Below, piece by piece: positions 1,078-13,282 of a stretch of DNA of 19,811 nucleotides (position 1 is its first letter; every line of letters starts with the position of its first letter). The notes beneath the pieces are model-generated. The model saw only the letters and a list, made by a program, of their open reading frames with translations. It was not told the origin of the DNA and made no database searches. The stretch is from Nitrospinota bacterium (lineage in GTDB: Bacteria > 2-12-FULL-45-22 > JACOWJ01): assembly GCA_016176845.1 (NCBI GenBank), contig JACOWJ010000008.1, forward strand, positions 1 to 19,811. The letters are read 5' to 3'. Position numbers and translations under genes: made by a program.

Positions 1078-1172
1078 AAAGTGAAAAATGCAAAATGATT
1101 GAAGAACAACGAGCTGACACTTTACAGTTTTTCTTTCACTTTGCATTTTACATTTTGCATTTTACATTTTGC
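1078..1172. repeat. AT-rich AAAATGCA-type short-repeat array
   Basis: The stretch is made of repeated words such as TTTTGCATTTTACATTTTGCA on the plus strand, with an inverted counterpart (GTGAAAAATGCAAAATG) at its left end. It separates the aminotransferase gene from the 137-residue gene. The aminotransferase stop codon (TTA at 1162-1164, read as TAA) and its last codons lie inside the array. The same words recur at 2820-2886 and 14908-14986. Confidence 0.8.
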
Positions 1173-2604
1173 CTTCTTTAGTCATCTTATCCACCTCCGA
1201 GAAGGCGTAATCCAGGGCCTCGATCCCCTGGTTGAGCTCCTCCTCGGTGATGGTCAGGGGCGGGGCCAGCCGCAGCGTGTTGGGGAAGACCCCCCCGGCC
1301 AGGACCCCCCGTTCGGCGCACTTATCCCGAATGACGGTGTTGGGGAACTTTTTGAGATCGCCCGCCGGCAGGAAGTGGCGGTCCTCGGTCACGAAGGGCT
1401 CCCTGGTCTTGCGATCCTTGACCATCTCGACCCCCCAGAGCATCCCCCCCTCGGAGCCGGCGACCATGCCGATGCAGGGGTGCTTGTCCTGCAGCTCCAA
1501 CAGCGACTTTTCCAACATCTTGCTGGCTCTGCGGGCCACCGCGGGCAGGTCCATCTCTTTCATCACCTCGATGGTGGCACAGGTGGCCGCCATGGCGATC
1601 GGGTGGGCGGCGAAGGTATTGATCGACCACCAGCGGTATCCCTCGAAGAAGTCGGCGATCTCCCGGCTCAGGACGACGCCCCCGATGGGGATGGCGGAGT
1701 TGGTGGTGGCCTTGGCGATGCTCATCAGGTCGGGGGTGACCCCCGGGTAGCGCTGGTAGGCGAACCATTGGCCCATCCGGCCGAAGCCGCACATCACCTC
1801 GTCGTCGATCCACAGGATCCCCAGCCGCCGGGTCATCTCCCGGATCTGGGGGATGTACTCGAGGGGTGGGTGGACGCACCCTCCCCCCATGGTAATCTCG
1901 GTGATCATGGCCGCCACCGTCTCGGGGCCCAGGGTCCGGATAATATTCTCGGTGATCTGGATGCAGGCTAGCGTCCCATCCGGCTGTTTGCAGGAGGGAT
2001 AGGTGTGCCCCAGGGAGCAGCGGTAGCAGAAAGGAGCCGGGACAAAGTGGAAGCTGGCATGATTGAAGCCCGGCACGTCTCGGATCTCCTGGGCCTCGGG
2101 GGAGGTCAGGGCGCTGCGGACCGCCCGCAGCTTGGTGCAGCCCGCCGCCCCCATGGTCCAGCCATGGTAGGCGTACTCGCGGGTGATGATGTTGGGCCGG
2201 CCGGTGAAGAGCCGGGCGATAATCAGGGCGGCCTCGACCGCCTCGCTCCCCGAATTGGAGAAACGCACCCGGCCAGCCCACCCATCCGGGCCCAGCAGGT
2301 CCTCGACGATGAGCTTGGCGGCCCGGGCCCGGTAATCGGTACAGAAGGCCTCCCATACGAAGCCGTAACGATCCACCGCCTCCTTGATGGCCTCCCGGAT
2401 CCGGGGATGGCCCTGGTCGATGTTGACGCAGACCAGCTGGCTGGAGAAGTCTAGCAGCTTCTTGCCGTCGGGCATGTAGAGGTAGCTCCCCTCGGTCCGG
2501 GCGATGGGAACGTAACCGTACTCGCCCTGGGACTTCAGCACGTGCAGGTAGTATTTCTCGTCCCACTCCTTGACCTGTCCCCAATCAATAGCGTTCTCGG
2601 ACAT
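1162..2604 (-). CDS. Class III PLP-dependent aminotransferase
   Basis: A 480-residue fold-type I enzyme expected to transfer an amino group between an omega-amino or similar donor and a keto acid in the cytoplasm. Class III landmarks are in order: NSGSEAVEAAL at 117-127 (phosphate contact), YHGW at 146-149, IDDEV at 266-270 (Asp contacting the PLP nitrogen) and SIAKATTNSAIPIGG with the presumed Schiff-base Lys298. A cysteine-rich insertion at about 190-214 (PAPFCYRC, then C205 and C214) resembles the CYRC segment of taurine:pyruvate-type aminotransferases, but the substrate cannot be assigned. Length fits the family. The start is supported by GGGAGGT 5 nt upstream of the ATG, with a perfect 7-bp hairpin just before it. 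It is the last gene of the leftward set, downstream of a radical-SAM/SPASM gene. The final residues GKM and the stop come from an AT-rich repeat array. Confidence 0.9.
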   Translation of the reverse strand: MSENAIDWGQVKEWDEKYYLHVLKSQGEYGYVPIARTEGSYLYMPDGKKLLDFSSQLVCVNIDQGHPRIREAIKEAVDRYGFVWEAFCTDYRARAAKLIVEDLLGPDGWAGRVRFSNSGSEAVEAALIIARLFTGRPNIITREYAYHGWTMGAAGCTKLRAVRSALTSPEAQEIRDVPGFNHASFHFVPAPFCYRCSLGHTYPSCKQPDGTLACIQITENIIRTLGPETVAAMITEITMGGGCVHPPLEYIPQIREMTRRLGILWIDDEVMCGFGRMGQWFAYQRYPGVTPDLMSIAKATTNSAIPIGGVVLSREIADFFEGYRWWSINTFAAHPIAMAATCATIEVMKEMDLPAVARRASKMLEKSLLELQDKHPCIGMVAGSEGGMLWGVEMVKDRKTREPFVTEDRHFLPAGDLKKFPNTVIRDKCAERGVLAGGVFPNTLRLAPPLTITEEELNQGIEALDYAFSEVDKMTKEGKM

Positions 2605-2617
2605 GATCTACCTCCCT

Positions 2618-2634
2618 TGCTCGCTTCGCGAGCA
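2618..2634 (-). repeat. TGCTCGC-GAA-GCGAGCA hairpin at aminotransferase SD
   Basis: A perfect 7-bp stem with a 3-nt loop ends next to the SD (GGGAGGT) of the aminotransferase gene. Related CTCGC-nnn-GCGAG hairpins sit upstream of the starts at 6814, 8961 and 15004, and a degenerate copy precedes prfB. Confidence 0.75.
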
Positions 2635-2886
2635 TTGGAAATTGAAGATTGGAAATTGGAAATTGAATAAGATTGGAAATTTGCCCCCCGCTCGCTCATT
2701 TTGAGAAAATTCATCGTCGCGAAAAACCGTTGGGATGGAAGCGGGCGGGATAAATCCCGCCCCTACATTGCCATTGGTCCTCCCAACGCTCATTCGCGCT
2801 AAAAAAATTGGGCTGGCGATGAATTTAAAATTTCCGATCTCTAATCTCCAATTTTCATTTTTCATTTTGCATTTTTCATTTTGCAA
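2635..2886. repeat. Composite intergenic repeat block (GGAAATTG array, GGGCGGGAT palindrome, AAAATGCA array)
   Basis: This 250-bp gap between the radical-SAM and aminotransferase genes has three parts. 2635-2687 is a GGAAATTG/GAAATTGAA array. 2741-2766 contains a perfect inverted repeat, GGGCGGGAT facing ATCCCGCCC, followed by CCTAC. 2820-2886 is an AAAATGAAAAATGCA-type array running up to the stop codon of the radical-SAM gene. Open frames here have repeat-like translations and are not credible genes. Confidence 0.75.
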
Positions 2887-2887
2887 T

Positions 2888-3955
2888 CTATTGCAGGTAG
2901 TACTCCCGGGCCTCAGGGTTCAGCCAGCAGCGGGGATCGGAGGCCTGATAGTCCCCCAGGAACATATAGGCATTGCCCCGACAGCCGATGCAGTGGGGGT
3001 TGTTCTCGCATTCGCCGCATTTCCCCTTGATGGGGAAGGAGAAGGTAACCAGCTCGCGGTTCTGCTCGAAGACCTCCCGGATCGAGCCCTCGTAGACGTT
3101 GCCGATCTTGTGCTCTGGGTAGAGACAGCCGCAGGGGGCCAGGTCGCCGTTGGCCATCAGGGCCAGGTTGGTGCGGCAGTAGTAGGTCCCAATGGGGGTG
3201 TCGCCCAGCATCAGCCAGCCGGCGCCCAGCCGCCTGGCCAGGTGCTCGTGGGCCCGGCGGATGTCGGAGAGGCCCGGCTCGTATTTCCGGTCCTCGGTCT
3301 TGAAGCCGCTGGGCTTGAAGGGGCAGAGGATGACCTGTTGGGCGCCCATCTCGTCGATGAACCAGTCGAGGGTCTCTTCGATATAGGGTATCGTGGGCCG
3401 GGTCAGCGTGAGGGTGGGCAGGACCTTCTTGGGGGAGAAGCCTGCCCCCAGCAGGGCCCGGTAGCTCTCCATTTTGAGGGCCAGGGTGTTGGGGTAGAAA
3501 TTGACCTGGCCGTAGGCCTCCGGGTTCACCGTGTCAATGTGGATGCCCACGCAGACCAGCCGCTCGTTGTCCAGCTTCATGATCTGCTGGATGACCTTCT
3601 TGGGCAGCACCCCGCCCGTCCAGAGGGAGACGCCGATCTCCCGGCTCATGGCGTGGCCGGCGATGTCGTACCAGTCGGGGTGGAGGATGGGGTCGCCCCC
3701 CCCCAGATACATCTCCTTGACGCCGACATCGGCGGCCTCGTCGATGACCCGGGCCAGGACCCCCCTCTCCAGGAAGATGTCGTCCTTGGTCGTGCATCCG
3801 TAAATGCAGTAGCTGCAGCCGGCGGCGCATTTGTTGGTGAGCTCCACCTCCAGGTGATAGAGCTTTCGCTGGTTGGCGTATTCCATCCGTTCCTGGTTAA
3901 AGGTGTAAAGCTGCTCGTCCAACCCGAAAAATTGGCAGCTGTCCACGTGAGCCAT
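2888..3955 (-). CDS. Radical SAM/SPASM domain protein
   Basis: A 355-residue radical-SAM enzyme. It has the canonical [4Fe-4S]/SAM motif CX3CX2C (C43, C47, C50), followed by GGGDP at 85-89 for SAM binding. The C-terminus has a SPASM-type pattern for auxiliary Fe-S clusters: C260, GX4C ending at C275, C277, then C313-X2-C316-X5-C322-X2-C325 and C343. SPASM enzymes often modify peptides or protein side chains or act in cofactor maturation. No substrate peptide is evident nearby, so the reaction is unknown. The longer frame starting at 3988 is less likely, because AGGAGGGAGGAGCG sits directly before the ATG at 3955. The gene is 283 bp upstream of the aminotransferase in the same direction, separated by repeats. 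Assignment to radical SAM/SPASM is secure; substrate is open. Confidence 0.9.
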   Translation of the reverse strand: MAHVDSCQFFGLDEQLYTFNQERMEYANQRKLYHLEVELTNKCAAGCSYCIYGCTTKDDIFLERGVLARVIDEAADVGVKEMYLGGGDPILHPDWYDIAGHAMSREIGVSLWTGGVLPKKVIQQIMKLDNERLVCVGIHIDTVNPEAYGQVNFYPNTLALKMESYRALLGAGFSPKKVLPTLTLTRPTIPYIEETLDWFIDEMGAQQVILCPFKPSGFKTEDRKYEPGLSDIRRAHEHLARRLGAGWLMLGDTPIGTYYCRTNLALMANGDLAPCGCLYPEHKIGNVYEGSIREVFEQNRELVTFSFPIKGKCGECENNPHCIGCRGNAYMFLGDYQASDPRCWLNPEAREYYLQ

Positions 3956-3959
3956 CGCT

Positions 3960-3969
3960 CCTCCCTCCT
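3960..3969 (-). promoter_or_regulatory. Ribosome binding site deciding the 3955 start
   Basis: On the minus strand, AGGAGGGAGG ends 4 nt before the ATG at 3955. The in-frame upstream ATG at 3988 would place this purine tract inside the coding region and adds 11 residues (MGPPVREEGGA) unlike an enzyme N-terminus. Confidence 0.75.
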
Positions 3970-4081
3970 CTCTCACCGGAGGCCCCAAAGGCCCCCGGTT
4001 ATTGAAGCTTGAACGCCCATCGCGGGCCTCCCCTTTTTCAACTTAAGCCTGTAGATATCGCTCTTTCTCTACATTGTTATC

Positions 4082-4098
4082 GAGGCTCATGCAGCCTC
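4082..4098 (-). terminator. Weak hairpin at the corA stop codon
   Basis: GAGGCT-nnnnn-AGCCTC forms a perfect 6-bp stem that overlaps the corA TGA. It is followed by GATAACAATG rather than a U tract, so it is at best a weak or factor-assisted terminator. Confidence 0.3.
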
Positions 4099-5164
4099 AC
4101 AGCCATCTCTTTTTCCTGAAATAAACCACCATCGAGACCCCAATCACCCCCATGATAGAGCAAGCCATAAAATAACCCCAACGCCACTCAAGCTCCGGCA
4201 TATATTTAAAATTCATCCCGTAAATTCCGGCAATCAAGCTCAGCGGCATGAATATCGTCATGACGATCGTCAATACTTTCATTACTGCATTCATCTTATT
4301 ATTGATACTTGAAAGATAAATATCAAGCATCCCTGAAAGCATATCCCGAAATGTCTCTATTGTTTCAATGACATAAATTGCATGATCGTGAACATCTCTA
4401 AAATACATCTCCATGGTTTCTTTGATCAGCGAGGACTCTCCTCTTTCCAGACTACTGATTACTTCTCTCAAAGGCCAAACGGCCTTCCGTAAGAATATCA
4501 TCTCTCTTTTTAAGCGATGGATCTCCCGTAAGGTTTGTGTTGTGGGATCGACCACCAGCTCTTCTTCCAGCAGCTCTATATTTTCCCCTAATTTTTCGAG
4601 AACTATAAAATAGTTATCAACTATAGCATCTAATAAAGTGTAACCAAGATAGTCTGCCCCCATCGTCCGGATGCGACCCTTGCCATTCCTGATTCTCTCC
4701 CTGATCGGGTCAAAAACGTCCCCTTCCTTTCCTTCTTGAAAAGAAATGACAAAGTTCGATCCAAGGATCAAGCTGATCTGCTCCGTAACTATTTCACCAC
4801 ACTTTCCATTGAAATAAATCATTTTCAGAACGATATAGATATACTTATCATAATCATCTATTTTTGGACGCTGATCTGTATTAAGAATGTCCTCCAATAC
4901 CAGAGGATGTAATCCAAAATAATTACCAACTTCTTCGACAATCCCAACCTGATGAATACCCTCGACATTAACCCATGTTATGGTACTCTTGTCTTTCGAG
5001 AGGCGGGATTCCTGGATCGTTTTTATTTCTTTTTCTTCAAAATGCCCATCATTGTAACCCATTATGGTAATTTTTACTTCCTCGGCCTTTTTCTCTCCAA
5101 TATGAACGAGAGTCCCGGGGGGGAGGCCGGCCTTTTTCGATCTTTTCTTTGTAAGCCTTGGCAT
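4097..5164 (-). CDS. corA: CorA-family magnesium/cobalt transporter
   Basis: A 355-residue inner-membrane divalent-cation channel. The N-terminal two-thirds is the cytoplasmic alpha/beta and long-helix region (NVEGIHQ at about 66; LHPLVLEDILNTDQRPKIDDYD in the 80s to 100s). The C-terminus has two membrane segments, the first ending in the invariant YGMNF selectivity-filter motif, and a short basic tail (YFRKKRWL) at the cytoplasmic exit, as in CorA pentamers. AAGGGGG just upstream of the ATG is a good SD. The gene is clearly more AT-rich than the aminotransferase and radical-SAM genes on either side and has large repeat-filled gaps, so it may have been acquired separately. Function is confident. 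A metabolic link to its neighbours is not indicated. Confidence 0.93.
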   Translation of the reverse strand: MPRLTKKRSKKAGLPPGTLVHIGEKKAEEVKITIMGYNDGHFEEKEIKTIQESRLSKDKSTITWVNVEGIHQVGIVEEVGNYFGLHPLVLEDILNTDQRPKIDDYDKYIYIVLKMIYFNGKCGEIVTEQISLILGSNFVISFQEGKEGDVFDPIRERIRNGKGRIRTMGADYLGYTLLDAIVDNYFIVLEKLGENIELLEEELVVDPTTQTLREIHRLKREMIFLRKAVWPLREVISSLERGESSLIKETMEMYFRDVHDHAIYVIETIETFRDMLSGMLDIYLSSINNKMNAVMKVLTIVMTIFMPLSLIAGIYGMNFKYMPELEWRWGYFMACSIMGVIGVSMVVYFRKKRWL

Positions 5165-5259: not shown

Positions 5260-5317
5260 ACCGCAGAGGCAGAGAGACGCAGAGAAGAGCTTGAGAAAAT
5301 CCCTGCGCCTCTGCGGT
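5260..5317. repeat. Inverted repeat ACCGCAGAGGC / GCCTCTGCGGT
   Basis: Perfect 11-nt arms at 5260-5270 and 5307-5317 enclose a purine-rich middle (AGAGAGACGCAGAG). This type of CGCAGAG-rich dispersed intergenic element is familiar from environmental genomes. It lies between the selenoprotein-like gene and corA. No coding potential. Confidence 0.6.
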
Positions 5318-5356
5318 AAAAATGCCCAATTCCTTTTCTAAACCTCTATAGCTCCC

Positions 5357-5410
5357 AGCTCATAGCTGACCGTTCCCTATTATGAGCTATGAGCTTTGAG
5401 CTATGAGCTA
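5357..5410. repeat. AGCTCATAGCT repeat cluster overlapping a stop codon
   Basis: AGCTCATAGCT at 5357-5367 faces repeated TATGAGCT words at 5381-5410. The cluster reaches the TAG stop (5408-5410) of the upstream radical-SAM gene. It can fold as a stem after the stop but lacks a U tract. Confidence 0.6.
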
Positions 5411-6814
5411 ACCTACCACCACCTCGGCCTCTCGCCGCAGCATGCAGGGGTCGCGGTACTCGTTATATCCCATGTCGCCCCAGCGGTGGCGGGCGAACTC
5501 CGAGCTGCCCATGATGATCCCCCCGCGGTAGCAGAAGAAGAAGCGGCTGGGGGTATAGAGCTTGTGCTGGAGCATGAGTTTATGGGTCTCGATGCCCACC
5601 CTCAGGTAATACTCCGTGGGCGGGCAGGGGGAGTGCTCGATTTTCGTCCCCGTATAGGTGATAAAGGGAGTCCAACTGGGGGCGATGCCGTGGCGGGCGA
5701 ACCACTCGTGACCCTCCATCACCGACGCGAAGCCCGCCTCCAGGTCCTTAAATCCCTCGGGGGGCTGCAGCTCCAGCCCCAAGACCTGGTTGCTCACTAC
5801 GTGGCCCTTTTCGAAGAAGGGGACCGCCCCGGCCAGCCACTCGGTCCATTTTTCCCAGGTGATGTTCTTGGCCTTGCCGGGGCAGGTGTGGTAGAACATC
5901 TTCTTGTCCCAGACCTCGATGTTGTACTGGATGCCATGGAGGCCCACCTTGGCCAGCTTCTCCGCCGATTGGGGGGAGCAGGCCTGGGTCTCGACGTAGG
6001 TGTTGTACTCGGGCACTACCCGCCGCACCGCCTCGATATAAGGGATATAACGCTCGGCCTCCTTCTCCTGGTTGCAAATGGAGCCCCCGGTGATCAGCCA
6101 GGTCAGGCAGCGGCAGTTGTTCTGGCCGCAGGGGATCTTGGCCTCGAGGAACTTCTTGCCCCGCTGGTACTGCTCATCCCGCACGATGGTCAGGGCCTCG
6201 GCCACCCTCTCGGGGGTGATCGCCACCGGCTTGTTGATCCCCATCCCTTGAATGGCCTTCTGGCCGGCGGTCAGGGGGCAGAACCAGCACTCCTCGTCGG
6301 TGTTTGCGTACACGCAAAACGAAGGGGTAATGGTTCAGGTGTGGGTGTCGCCCATGGGGGTTAAGATCAGGGGCACCGGAGTGCCGTCCTGGAGGCGTTT
6401 GGAGAGCCAGTTGGGCCGGGGGACGAAGAGGACCTCCTCCACCGCCATCCCCTTCCAGTAGAGCAGGTAGGAGCCATCCCCCTCGTAGCGGATCTCGTAA
6501 GGGGCATCGGGCTTGATGAGAAGTTGGATGTTGGTGCCATCGCGCAAGACCATGAAGGAGGGAATATCGAAAAGGTTGGCCTCCTCCGGGCTGCGGCTGA
6601 CCTCCCCGCTCTTGACCTCCTCGGGGAAGGTCGAATAGCCGAAGGTTCCCAGGGGGAGTGTCCAGCGGCCGATCCAGTTGATCACAGGGGTGTAGCGGAC
6701 GCCCCAATTGAGGACATCCAGCTTGAGGATGGTGGTCCGGGGGATATCAGGGAATTTCTCGAACAGGTCGTATAGGGGTGTAGGCTCCTTCTGGCCGATG
6801 ATCGGGTTGGTCAT
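5408..6814 (-). CDS. Radical-SAM-like selenoprotein with in-frame UGA (Sec160)
   Basis: One 468-residue protein is read here, with the TGA at 6335-6337 decoded as selenocysteine. Residues 1-159 (from MTNPIIGQKE) end ...GDTHT. After the UGA the same frame continues TITPSFCVYANTDEECWFCPL to a TAG at 5408. Residues C167, C176 and C179 (CX8CX2C), ITGGS at 241-245, and the YVETQ and IQYNIEVWD strands suggest a divergent radical-SAM barrel, with Sec160 seven residues before the first cluster cysteine. A SECIS-like hairpin lies 17-32 nt after the UGA. A separate downstream gene would have to begin at GTG 6313, only 21 nt after the stop and with no SD. Start 6814 is preceded by GAGGGAGGG; the upstream in-frame extension to 6904 encodes repeat DNA. 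Alternatives are a nonsense mutation or a sequencing error. The reaction is unknown. It is flanked by a porin-like gene and corA. Confidence 0.75.
6303..6318 (-). promoter_or_regulatory. Bacterial SECIS-like hairpin
   Basis: In the transcript, UUUGCG-UGUA-CGCAAA is a perfect 6-bp stem with a 4-nt loop containing G. The loop is 23-26 nt downstream of the in-frame UGA, in the usual range for bacterial SECIS elements, whose apical loop needs a G for SelB recognition. A seventh pair is possible with a bulged U. The hairpin is inside the coding frame, as expected in bacteria. Confidence 0.6.
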
Positions 6815-6829
6815 CTCGGTTTCCCTCCC

Positions 6830-6868
6830 TCTCGCTTCGCGAGAATTGGAAATTGGAAAATAAAAAAT
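6830..6868 (-). repeat. TCTCGC-GAA-GCGAGA hairpin with GGAAATTG array
   Basis: A perfect 6-bp hairpin (6830-6844) next to the SD of the selenoprotein-like gene is followed on the plus strand by GAATTGGAAATTGGAAAAT. It is the same module as at 2618, 8997 and 14987. Confidence 0.7.
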
Positions 6869-6878
6869 GGAGAGACAG

Positions 6879-6941
6879 GGCCTATCCGAAGCCCCAGGGG
6901 CCATGGCGTGGGCTTCGACCCCTGGGGGCTTCGGATAGGCC
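6879..6941 (-). terminator. Long GC-rich hairpin after the DUF1302-like gene
   Basis: Arms of about 22 bp (GGCCTATCCGAAGCCCC-AGGGG and its complement, with one bulged base) enclose an 18-nt loop. In the leftward transcript, CTGTCTCTCC and then ATTTTTTATTTT follow it, so it can act as an intrinsic terminator for the outer-membrane gene. The U tract is about 10 nt late, and it may equally be a dispersed repeat. It would reduce transcription into the selenoprotein-like gene. Confidence 0.5.
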
Positions 6942-6963: not shown

Positions 6964-8961
6964 CTAGAACCGGTATCCAAACCGTAAAAAGATCTCGTCG
7001 TTATGCCTGGAGAGGTAATCCCCAAACAGCTCCTTGGCCACCCCGATGGAGATCTCTTGCAGGTCGCCCACGGGTGGCCTGAAGGCTGGCCGCTCCCCTC
7101 CGATGTTGTGGTCGGCCAGGTTGGTGGAGTTGTCGCCCCCCAGGATCCGCCGGAGGGTGGAGTCCCGGCCCAGGGCGGGGATATAGCCCGATGCCAGGTT
7201 CTCATAGTGGCGCTTGGGATGGCCACCGGTGGAATTGAAGCCCACCTTGGCCGACCAGTGGTCGGTGAAGAGGTACTCGATCGCCCCGCCACTGAGGAGC
7301 GACCTGCCATTGGGCGACCAGGCGATGAACCAGCTGGGGTTCAGCCGGTCGTGGAAGTAGTTGGTCGAGAGGGCGAAGGTGAAGATGAACTGGTTGCGGT
7401 CGGTGGGGATCCCGGTGCGCGCTCCCCCCTCGTGATTGAAGATCGTCTGGCCGAAAGCCTGGCCCGAGACGAAGACCTGCCGGGTGGGATTGATCCACTT
7501 GAAGATGGGGCCGCCCACGGTGGGCCGGTCGATCCCGATCACCCACGAGAAGACGTTGTGCTCGCTGTTCAGGTCCAAATGATTCCAGTTCTCCAGCAGC
7601 TTGTTGGGGGTGAAGGACGACTCGATCCGCCACACGGTGGAGGTGTACGGCTCGAAATAGTCCACCGCCAGCCCGAAGGTGCTCTTCCGGGGGTTGACCA
7701 GCTCGATCACGCCGCCGAAGGGGAGCCCGGTGATCGGGTCGGGTTTGGCCGTGGACCAGGGGGTAATCACGTGGTCCACCGGGATGTCCTGGCGGCCGTT
7801 GAAATAGGTGAGGGCGAAGCGCCAGCCCTTGAGGAGGAACTCCAGGTTGGCCCCATACTGCATGTTGTGCCAGCTGACCGAGTGGGGGACGTGCCACCGC
7901 TCCAGGATCTGGCTGCCCCCCAGCCGCGAGAAGCGCTGGGCGCAACGGGCCGGGTCGGCACAGCCGGTCGCGGGGATGAGGGGCTCACCCCGGGCACCCC
8001 GGAAGGCGTTCACGATGCCCGCGAAGATGTTGGGCATGGTAGCCGCAGCGCCGTTCCGGAGGGTATCATTCCGCAGGGCCTTGGTATAGTTGTAGACGGC
8101 CGTTCCCGTCCGCCCCCCCTCATAGGAGAGGACGGTGGCCCAGGGCTGGCCCACCTGGCCGATCCCGATCGGCTGGAATTGGCCCAGACTGCCGATCAGC
8201 TGCAGGGCCACGTTCTCGAAGGGCCCCCGGGGACCGAACTGGTACTGATAATTGATGTACCACTGGGGCATGCGGATGTCCACCCAGGGCTCCAGGAAGG
8301 AATGGATGCCGAAGTCCACCGGATTGACGATGTCCTGGAGGCGGAAGTTGTCCGCCTTCCCCCAGACGATCTGCTGCTTGCCCAGACGCAGCCAGTGCTT
8401 GCCGGCCGTGAGGTCGAAGTAGAGCTCCCGGAAGGGCCAATCCCGATAGGCATCCGTCCGCTCCCAGCGCAGCTGGTTCCGGGTGAGGTTCTGCTTGTAG
8501 CCGTGCAGCCGGTCGAAGGGCAAAAACGGAAGGTCCAACAATCGGAAGTTCCCCGCGTTGCGCGGGGGCCGGGCCCGGTTCTCCCAGTGGCCGACGGGAC
8601 TGTCGATGAGCGCGGGGGCCTCCTCACCCCAGCGATCGCGGCGCATGTCGTAGATCCCCTCGTAGACCGGGCGGATCATGGTATGGAAATCGAGCTTGTC
8701 GATGGGGCCCAGATCGGTGAGCAGGTTCTCCAGGGTGAGCTCGAACTGGGGAACGAAACGGCTGCTGACCAGGCTCAGGCTCTCGTCAAAGCGAAAGTCG
8801 TCGCTTCGCAGCAGGCTCTGGTTGTAGATAGTTCCTTCCACCAGGAGCCGCATGCGTCCTCCTTCCCCTCCCAGACTGAATTCCATCCTAGCCAGGGCGG
8901 AGGCCGGCCCGGTGAGGCTGAAGATTACGGCTAAGAGGCCAATGATGGCCCTTTCCCTCAT
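6964..8961 (-). CDS. DUF1302-like outer-membrane beta-barrel protein
   Basis: A 665-residue exported protein. It has a signal peptide (MRERAIIGLLAVIFSLTGPASALA) with predicted cleavage near residue 24. The body is rich in alternating aromatic and polar strands. The stretch LRLGKQQIVWGKADNFRLQDIVNPVDFG, followed by LEPWVDIRMPQW, is typical of DUF1302/DUF1302-like proteins. It ends in FLRFGYRF, a C-terminal Phe as used by the BAM machinery. Members are thought to be outer-membrane channels or partners of RND-type exporters and steroid/lipid systems, but no RND gene is visible here. GGGAGGA lies 6 nt before the ATG. It is the first gene of the leftward set, about 620 nt downstream of a candidate promoter at 9589-9616, with a hairpin terminator candidate after its stop. 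Family is fairly confident; cargo unknown. Confidence 0.85.
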   Translation of the reverse strand: MRERAIIGLLAVIFSLTGPASALARMEFSLGGEGGRMRLLVEGTIYNQSLLRSDDFRFDESLSLVSSRFVPQFELTLENLLTDLGPIDKLDFHTMIRPVYEGIYDMRRDRWGEEAPALIDSPVGHWENRARPPRNAGNFRLLDLPFLPFDRLHGYKQNLTRNQLRWERTDAYRDWPFRELYFDLTAGKHWLRLGKQQIVWGKADNFRLQDIVNPVDFGIHSFLEPWVDIRMPQWYINYQYQFGPRGPFENVALQLIGSLGQFQPIGIGQVGQPWATVLSYEGGRTGTAVYNYTKALRNDTLRNGAAATMPNIFAGIVNAFRGARGEPLIPATGCADPARCAQRFSRLGGSQILERWHVPHSVSWHNMQYGANLEFLLKGWRFALTYFNGRQDIPVDHVITPWSTAKPDPITGLPFGGVIELVNPRKSTFGLAVDYFEPYTSTVWRIESSFTPNKLLENWNHLDLNSEHNVFSWVIGIDRPTVGGPIFKWINPTRQVFVSGQAFGQTIFNHEGGARTGIPTDRNQFIFTFALSTNYFHDRLNPSWFIAWSPNGRSLLSGGAIEYLFTDHWSAKVGFNSTGGHPKRHYENLASGYIPALGRDSTLRRILGGDNSTNLADHNIGGERPAFRPPVGDLQEISIGVAKELFGDYLSRHNDEIFLRFGYRF

Positions 8962-12171: not shown

Positions 12172-13282
12172 ATGTTCGAGGAACAAGAAAAAAGGCTGAG
12201 CGAAATCGAGGAACGGTTGAAGATTCTCCGAGGTGATCTTTGACTTAGGAGTGTTGGAGGAAGAGGTTAAAAAATTGGAAGAGGAAGTCGCAAAGGAGGG
12301 CTTCTGGGAAGATGGTGGGGCCGCGCAGCAGATCCTCAAGAAGAGGGCTCAGCTCCTCAATACCATCGAGAAATGGCAGGCCTTGTCCCGAGAGGCCGAA
12401 GAGAATCAGATTCTGGTGGAGCTGGTCAGCGAAGAGGGAGATCTCTCCATGATGTCAGAGGTGGAGGCCGGCCTGGGCTCGCTGGAGGAAAAGGTAAACC
12501 TGTTGGAGATCGAGACCCTCTTCAAGGAGCCCCATGACAAGAGCAACGCCATCGTCTCCATCCATCCCGGGGCCGGGGGCACCGAGTCGCAGGACTGGGC
12601 CGAGATGTTGCTCAACATGTACCTGAAGTGGGCTGAAAAGCGGGGCCACAAGACGGAGACCATGGATCTGCAGGCCGCCGAAGAGGCCGGCCTCAAGAGC
12701 GTGACCTTCTCCGTGGTTGGCCAGTACGCATACGGATACCTGAGGACCGAGGCGGGGGTCCATCGCCTGGTGCGCATCTCTCCCTTCGATTACAACAAAC
12801 GGCGTCACACCTCCTTCGCATCCGTCTCTGTCTACCCGGATATCGAAGAGGAGATCGAGATCGAGATCGATGAGACCGACCTGCGGATCGACACCTACCG
12901 GTCCAGCGGGGCGGGAGGCCAACATGTCAACGTGACCGACTCGGCGGTCCGGATCACCCATCTCCCTTCCGGCATTGTAGTCCAGTGCCAAAACGAAAGA
13001 TCCCAACACCGCAATAAGGCCACGGCCTTAAAGATCCTGAAGGCCAGGCTTTACGAGCTGGAGTTGCGCCGGCAGACGGAGAAGCTGGCCACCTTCCACA
13101 AGGATAAGAAGGAGATCGCCTGGGGGAGCCAAATTCGCTCCTATGTCCTCCACCCTTACCGGCTGGCCAAGGATCACCGCACCGGCCTGGAGATCGGCAA
13201 CGTGGATGCGGTCCTCGGCGGAGAGATCCATCCGTTCATGCAGGCTTACTTGCGGCAAAGGGCGAAGATCCCGGTCGCGTGA
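12172..13282 (+). CDS. prfB: Peptide chain release factor 2 (programmed +1 frameshift)
   Basis: RF2 recognises UGA and UAA stops and triggers peptide release. The gene is split: 23 codons from ATG 12172 (MFEEQEKRLSEIEERLKILR...) end in CTT TGA C at 12238-12244, and the remaining frame starts at GAC 12242. Reading CTT, slipping +1 and continuing joins 12172-12240 to 12242-13282, giving 369 residues, close to the usual length. SPF at 203-205 (stop-codon recognition) and GGQ at 248-250 (peptidyl-tRNA hydrolysis) are present. AAAGGAGG lies 11 nt before the ATG; a TTG one codon earlier is a less likely start. It lies between lnt and lysS, preceded by a repeat block. Expression is expected to be autoregulated by RF2 level at the UGA. 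This is a normal RF2 feature, not a broken gene. Confidence 0.96.
12230..12244 (+). promoter_or_regulatory. prfB programmed +1 frameshift site
   Basis: GAGGTGATC (12230-12238) is complementary over 9 nt to the usual 3' end of 16S rRNA. It leads into CTT TGA C, the standard RF2 slip site in which tRNA-Leu slips from CUU to UUU at the UGA (12241-12243). The internal SD-like stretch differs from the E. coli AGGGGG version. Confidence 0.9.

Follow-up and report, generated by a model that had tools for sequence, protein, structure and literature searches.

A 2026 review names only two families of radical SAM selenoproteins, TIGR04167 and TrsS, and makes no mention of NF045502 (variant_rSAM) or MSMEG_0568 (PMC13188914). 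No report of selenocysteine (Sec) in the NF045502 family was found in the literature searched. The gene described here encodes a member of this variant radical SAM group and carries one in-frame UGA. It is located at 5408-6814 on the minus strand of the window, which is the whole stretch of 19,811 nucleotides analysed (contig JACOWJ010000008.1 of a Nitrospinota bacterium). The best reading of the sequence is that UGA codon 160 is probably translated as Sec, giving a single enzyme of 468 residues. The original prediction of a radical SAM selenoprotein is upheld as regards the joined protein and the Sec-decoding organism, while the support it drew from the hairpin and expected from a Cys at residue 160 is largely lost; the prediction stands as most likely rather than established.

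Gene organization and the read-through protein

The gene starts with an ATG at 6814-6812 and ends with a stop codon at 5410-5408, both on the minus strand. Purine-rich GAGGGAGG is found ahead of the ATG, and the purine-rich ribosome-binding site GAGGGAGGGAAACCGAG occupies 6815-6831 of the same strand. The sole internal stop across the 468 codons is the TGA at 6337-6335 (codon 160), and codon usage on either side of it is typical of a gene. After the TGA come seven codons (ACC ATT ACC CCT TCG TTT TGC) and then the next potential start, a GTG at 6313-6311 that is not preceded by a Shine-Dalgarno sequence. A product begun at this GTG would be devoid of Cys167, the first cluster cysteine, which lies seven residues after the proposed Sec, as originally described. 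The earlier account of two same-frame open reading frames parted by TGA 6335-6337 and seven codons, the downstream one without Shine-Dalgarno sequence or ATG, was likewise confirmed and is now assigned to the minus strand.

The gene is flanked by a DUF1302 gene (6964-8961) and by corA (4097-5164). In the gap that separates the DUF1302 gene from the UGA gene there is an inverted repeat (6879-6941) with 22-nt arms that are 91% complementary; a U-rich stretch follows it on the minus strand, which makes the repeat a possible terminator. Downstream of the UGA gene, at 5260-5404, the intergenic DNA contains imperfect inverted repeats (ATAGCTCCCAGCTCATAGCT and its inverse). On the minus strand (1162-3988), a class III aminotransferase gene adjoins that of a radical SAM/SPASM protein for which none of the listed NCBIfam matches reaches its cut-off; the two are possibly a small biosynthetic pair.

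The read-through protein matches NF045502 over residues 30-414 with an E-value of 8e-53 and 179.6 bits, above the curated cut-off of 125 bits, and the TGA lies inside the match. Since a single profile match spans residues 30-414, TGA included, and both halves have gene-like codon usage, the joined gene is beyond chance, which bears out the claim that read-through yields one sensible 468-residue radical SAM enzyme. About 100 homologues, drawn from 80 loci of GTDB genomes, a 192-genome sample and two Streptomyces plasmids, are all uninterrupted at the TGA site; the best identity of any of them to the read-through protein is about 32%. Nine residues invariant in 45 aligned proteins (C167, C176, C179, G244, G291, E300, P312, G313 and G346) are all kept in the UGA protein. 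The three cysteines form the cluster motif C-x8-C-x2-C (6278-6316, minus strand), a variant of the usual CxxxCxxC. Homologue scans of GTDB genomes and IMG/VR with the UGA protein alone returned nothing, and a PDB sequence search with it alone gave no match. Around the closest homologues, the neighbouring genes (for TetR and GntR regulators, a hydrolase, an MFS transporter and SAM synthetase) have no common theme. A second, intact variant_rSAM gene with Cys158 and a C-terminal CYRC is present in the same genome (L023; G000:C35:7033-8064), as is a further variant_rSAM fragment at the start of contig C3. The Chloroflexi MAG JACQUA01 carries at least eight variant_rSAM paralogues (L067, L070, L071, L073, L076, L083, L100 and L136).

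AlphaFold2, run on the alignment of 45 proteins, predicted a radical SAM barrel with a pLDDT of 84 and a pTM of 0.87. Residue 160 lies in the predicted strand 158-162 (beta1), directly ahead of the cluster loop. Residue alternation at 158-163, with hydrophobic residues conserved in alignment columns 159, 161 and 163, suggests that residues 158, 160 and 162 are on one face of this strand.

Selenocysteine decoding and the SECIS-like hairpin

The draft genome comprises 61 contigs (1.53 Mb) and is 68% complete; the collection searched includes only two genomes of its phylum. The original prediction had proposed a search for selA, selB, selC and selD, and all four are present: tRNA-Sec (selC) was detected above the cut-off and also by ARAGORN, and SelB, SelA and SelD were identified by profile matches in the same genome. 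The selD gene (L140; G000:C23:19348-20271) is itself a selenoprotein gene. It has an in-frame TGA at GAG-U-ACK, which we take to be the canonical Sec site of SelD, followed by a nine-pair hairpin (CUGGCGCAG-GUC-CUGCGCCAG) with G at the start of the loop. The organism must decode UGA as Sec to make SelD, and this gene therefore serves as an internal positive control. Profile matches within the same genome, about 60 in all (34 radical SAM, 13 ABC and about 15 more), were reported to contain no further stop, the Sec codon of selD excepted. Formate dehydrogenase and MvhD/FlpD, sought as extra Sec genes for SECIS comparison, gave matches without stops. In the window, prfB (release factor 2; 12172-13282, plus strand) has the programmed +1 frameshift site CTTTGAC at 12238-12244; because this site is kept, UGA is taken to be a normal stop in the organism.

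The SECIS-like hairpin UUUGCG-UGUA-CGCAAA is located at 6303-6318 on the minus strand, 17-32 nt after the UGA, so that its sequence and position are as first described. It falls within the published bSECIS constraints (PMC13188914), with a 4-nt loop, G at loop position 2, a spacing of 22 nt and an MFE of -11.8 kcal/mol. Of random codon positions in the genome's other genes, 56% satisfy these constraints as well, and a hairpin at least as stable is found at 22% of random codon positions in its genes. The stem-based score of the candidate is reached by 6.7% of random codon positions, as against 0.4% for the selD element, and the candidate is matched by 14% of synonymous recodings versus 0.8% for selD. 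On these figures the hairpin is statistically almost uninformative. Near background in this GC-rich genome, it permits Sec insertion and hardly argues for it, so that as weak evidence it no longer lends the prediction the support once drawn from it. No Rfam match was found across the hairpin. Rare codons are clustered after the UGA relative to the rest of the gene (4% of windows), not relative to the genome (16%), and on account of the genome figure this clustering was not counted as evidence that RNA structure is under selection. SECIS rules by themselves tell little in GC-rich genomes.

Residue 160, the altered cysteines and rival explanations

Column 160 of the alignment is occupied mostly by Tyr, Phe, Ala, Gly or Leu. 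The expectation that homologues would carry Cys or Sec at residue 160 was essentially disappointed, as Cys is found at exactly this position in 1 of about 100 homologues, L062, which comes from a deltaproteobacterial chromosome and belongs to the sister clade. The tree joins the UGA protein, on a long branch of its own (1.61), to a five-member sister clade (87/93). Each of the five has Cys158 together with a C-terminal CxxC, mostly CYxC. Cys158 is present in 10 of 103 homologues: 10 of the 17 with a C-terminal CxxC and none of the 86 without it (Fisher 8e-10, a significance inflated by kinship). The Cys158 proteins are spread over well separated parts of the tree, and the pattern suggests a single site, an auxiliary cluster or a redox site, formed by Cys158 and the C-terminal CxxC. 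The UGA protein has His158 and UGA160, and in no other protein is a lost Cys158 accompanied by a UGA two residues further along. At the C-terminus it reads CYRG (residues 428-431; 5522-5533, minus strand), Cys428 being kept and the second Cys of the CxxC replaced by Gly. A Cys-rich insert, CGQNNCRC (residues 229-236; 6107-6130, minus strand), just before strand beta2, is absent from the 44 aligned homologues. A two-residue slip that would align the UGA with Cys158 was rejected, the gapless alignment scoring better and all of four alignment settings being in agreement. No UGA copy at the site was found in other organisms in the GTDB, IMG/VR and phylum searches, in which homologues reached at most about 32% identity. 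Such copies lend support to a Sec assignment but are not strictly required of it, and as the sequences searched include no close orthologue, their absence is compatible with Sec.

Under the Sec reading, SelB and tRNA-Sec would insert Sec at UGA 160, possibly aided by the hairpin 17-32 nt downstream. The residue would be placed in the predicted strand beta1 of the barrel, just ahead of the cluster loop, where it would probably do the job of the sister clade's Cys158, the partner of the C-terminal CxxC. Its likeliest job would be to ligate an auxiliary site, either iron-sulfur or metal, or to act as a redox partner, beside the SAM cluster (Cys167, Cys176 and Cys179); Cys428 and the unique insert CGQNNCRC may complete the altered site.

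Sec is favoured because the gene is undamaged, because the Sec machinery is complete and in use, and because the stop is UGA rather than UAA or UAG. It is favoured also because the site adjoins the radical SAM cluster, at two residues' distance from a Cys that the whole sister clade shares, and no other stop is reported in the roughly 60 own-genome matches. The same reading is weakened by the restriction to a single genome with no second UGA copy, by the scarcity of exact Cys homologues, by the near-background hairpin, and by the long branch combined with the lost second Cys of the CxxC. Most of these weaknesses, namely one 61-contig draft genome at 68% completeness, a column 160 with no Cys/Sec pair in nearly all homologues, the hairpin and the long branch, are also what would be seen if an ordinary variant radical SAM gene had suffered a recent nonsense mutation in the strain or an error in the assembly consensus. 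This explanation is judged unlikely, since the 468 codons are otherwise undamaged with the invariant residues kept, about 60 profile matches in the genome are free of stops save the true Sec codon of selD, and the stop is a UGA, in a Sec-decoding genome, next but one to a Cys on which the sister clade agrees.

The standard code gives an open reading frame ending at codon 159 and a second one of 301 codons from GTG 6313, as would be expected if the UGA were a true stop and two proteins were made. Two separate proteins are untenable, since the profile match crosses the TGA and no homologue is split at the site; the split would moreover fall within the predicted strand beta1 of a single barrel, and the second product would start without a ribosome-binding site and without Cys167, which is invariant in 45 of 45 proteins. 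Decoding of UGA as some other amino acid, through a changed code or general read-through, would likewise account for a UGA in frame and is equally improbable, being held very unlikely in view of the cognate tRNA-Sec in the genome, of the frameshift site retained in prfB, which marks UGA as a normal stop, and of the fact that, among the genes matched, only selD besides needed a UGA.

Comparison with known radical SAM proteins

If the Sec reading is true, the variant_rSAM group, which is poorly understood, contains a third family of selenoproteins of the radical SAM type, and the presence of Sec inside the barrel beside the SAM cluster would hint at selenium chemistry within a radical enzyme. 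The fuller proposal is that in this third family the beta1 Sec replaces a Cys of the same face, with a new Cys-rich insert and an altered auxiliary metal or redox site, the change from Cys to Sec having moved two residues rather than taken place at the Cys itself; this is offered tentatively and is, taken as a whole, doubtful. This gene would probably escape searches for Cys/Sec pairs, which need a Cys that coincides with the UGA.

TIGR04167 (rSAM_SeCys, GxxU) and TrsS (NF045646) share with the UGA protein a radical SAM domain with Sec (PMC13188914); however, neither model is matched by it at E≤1. The MSMEG_0568 family radical SAM protein (TIGR04043) has a related barrel, with an E-value of 1e-9, but the UGA protein reaches 37.6 bits where the cut-off is 303.7. 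Among solved structures, lipoyl synthase, HydE and biotin synthase come closest in fold and share the barrel (VIA-align Z 15.5-17.8, with 236-257 aligned residues at an rmsd of 3.6-4.8) at an identity of 12-15%; they differ in the cluster motif, and the UGA protein is set apart from them by an N-terminal domain of about 150 residues. The L060/L062/L063/L064/L036 clade of NF045502 is alike over the whole length, including the C-x8-C-x2-C motif, the N-terminal domain and barrel, and the EVW and PGK motifs. Its members have Cys158 and the C-terminal CxxC and no UGA, whereas the protein described here has His158, UGA160, CYRG and the insert CGQNNCRC.
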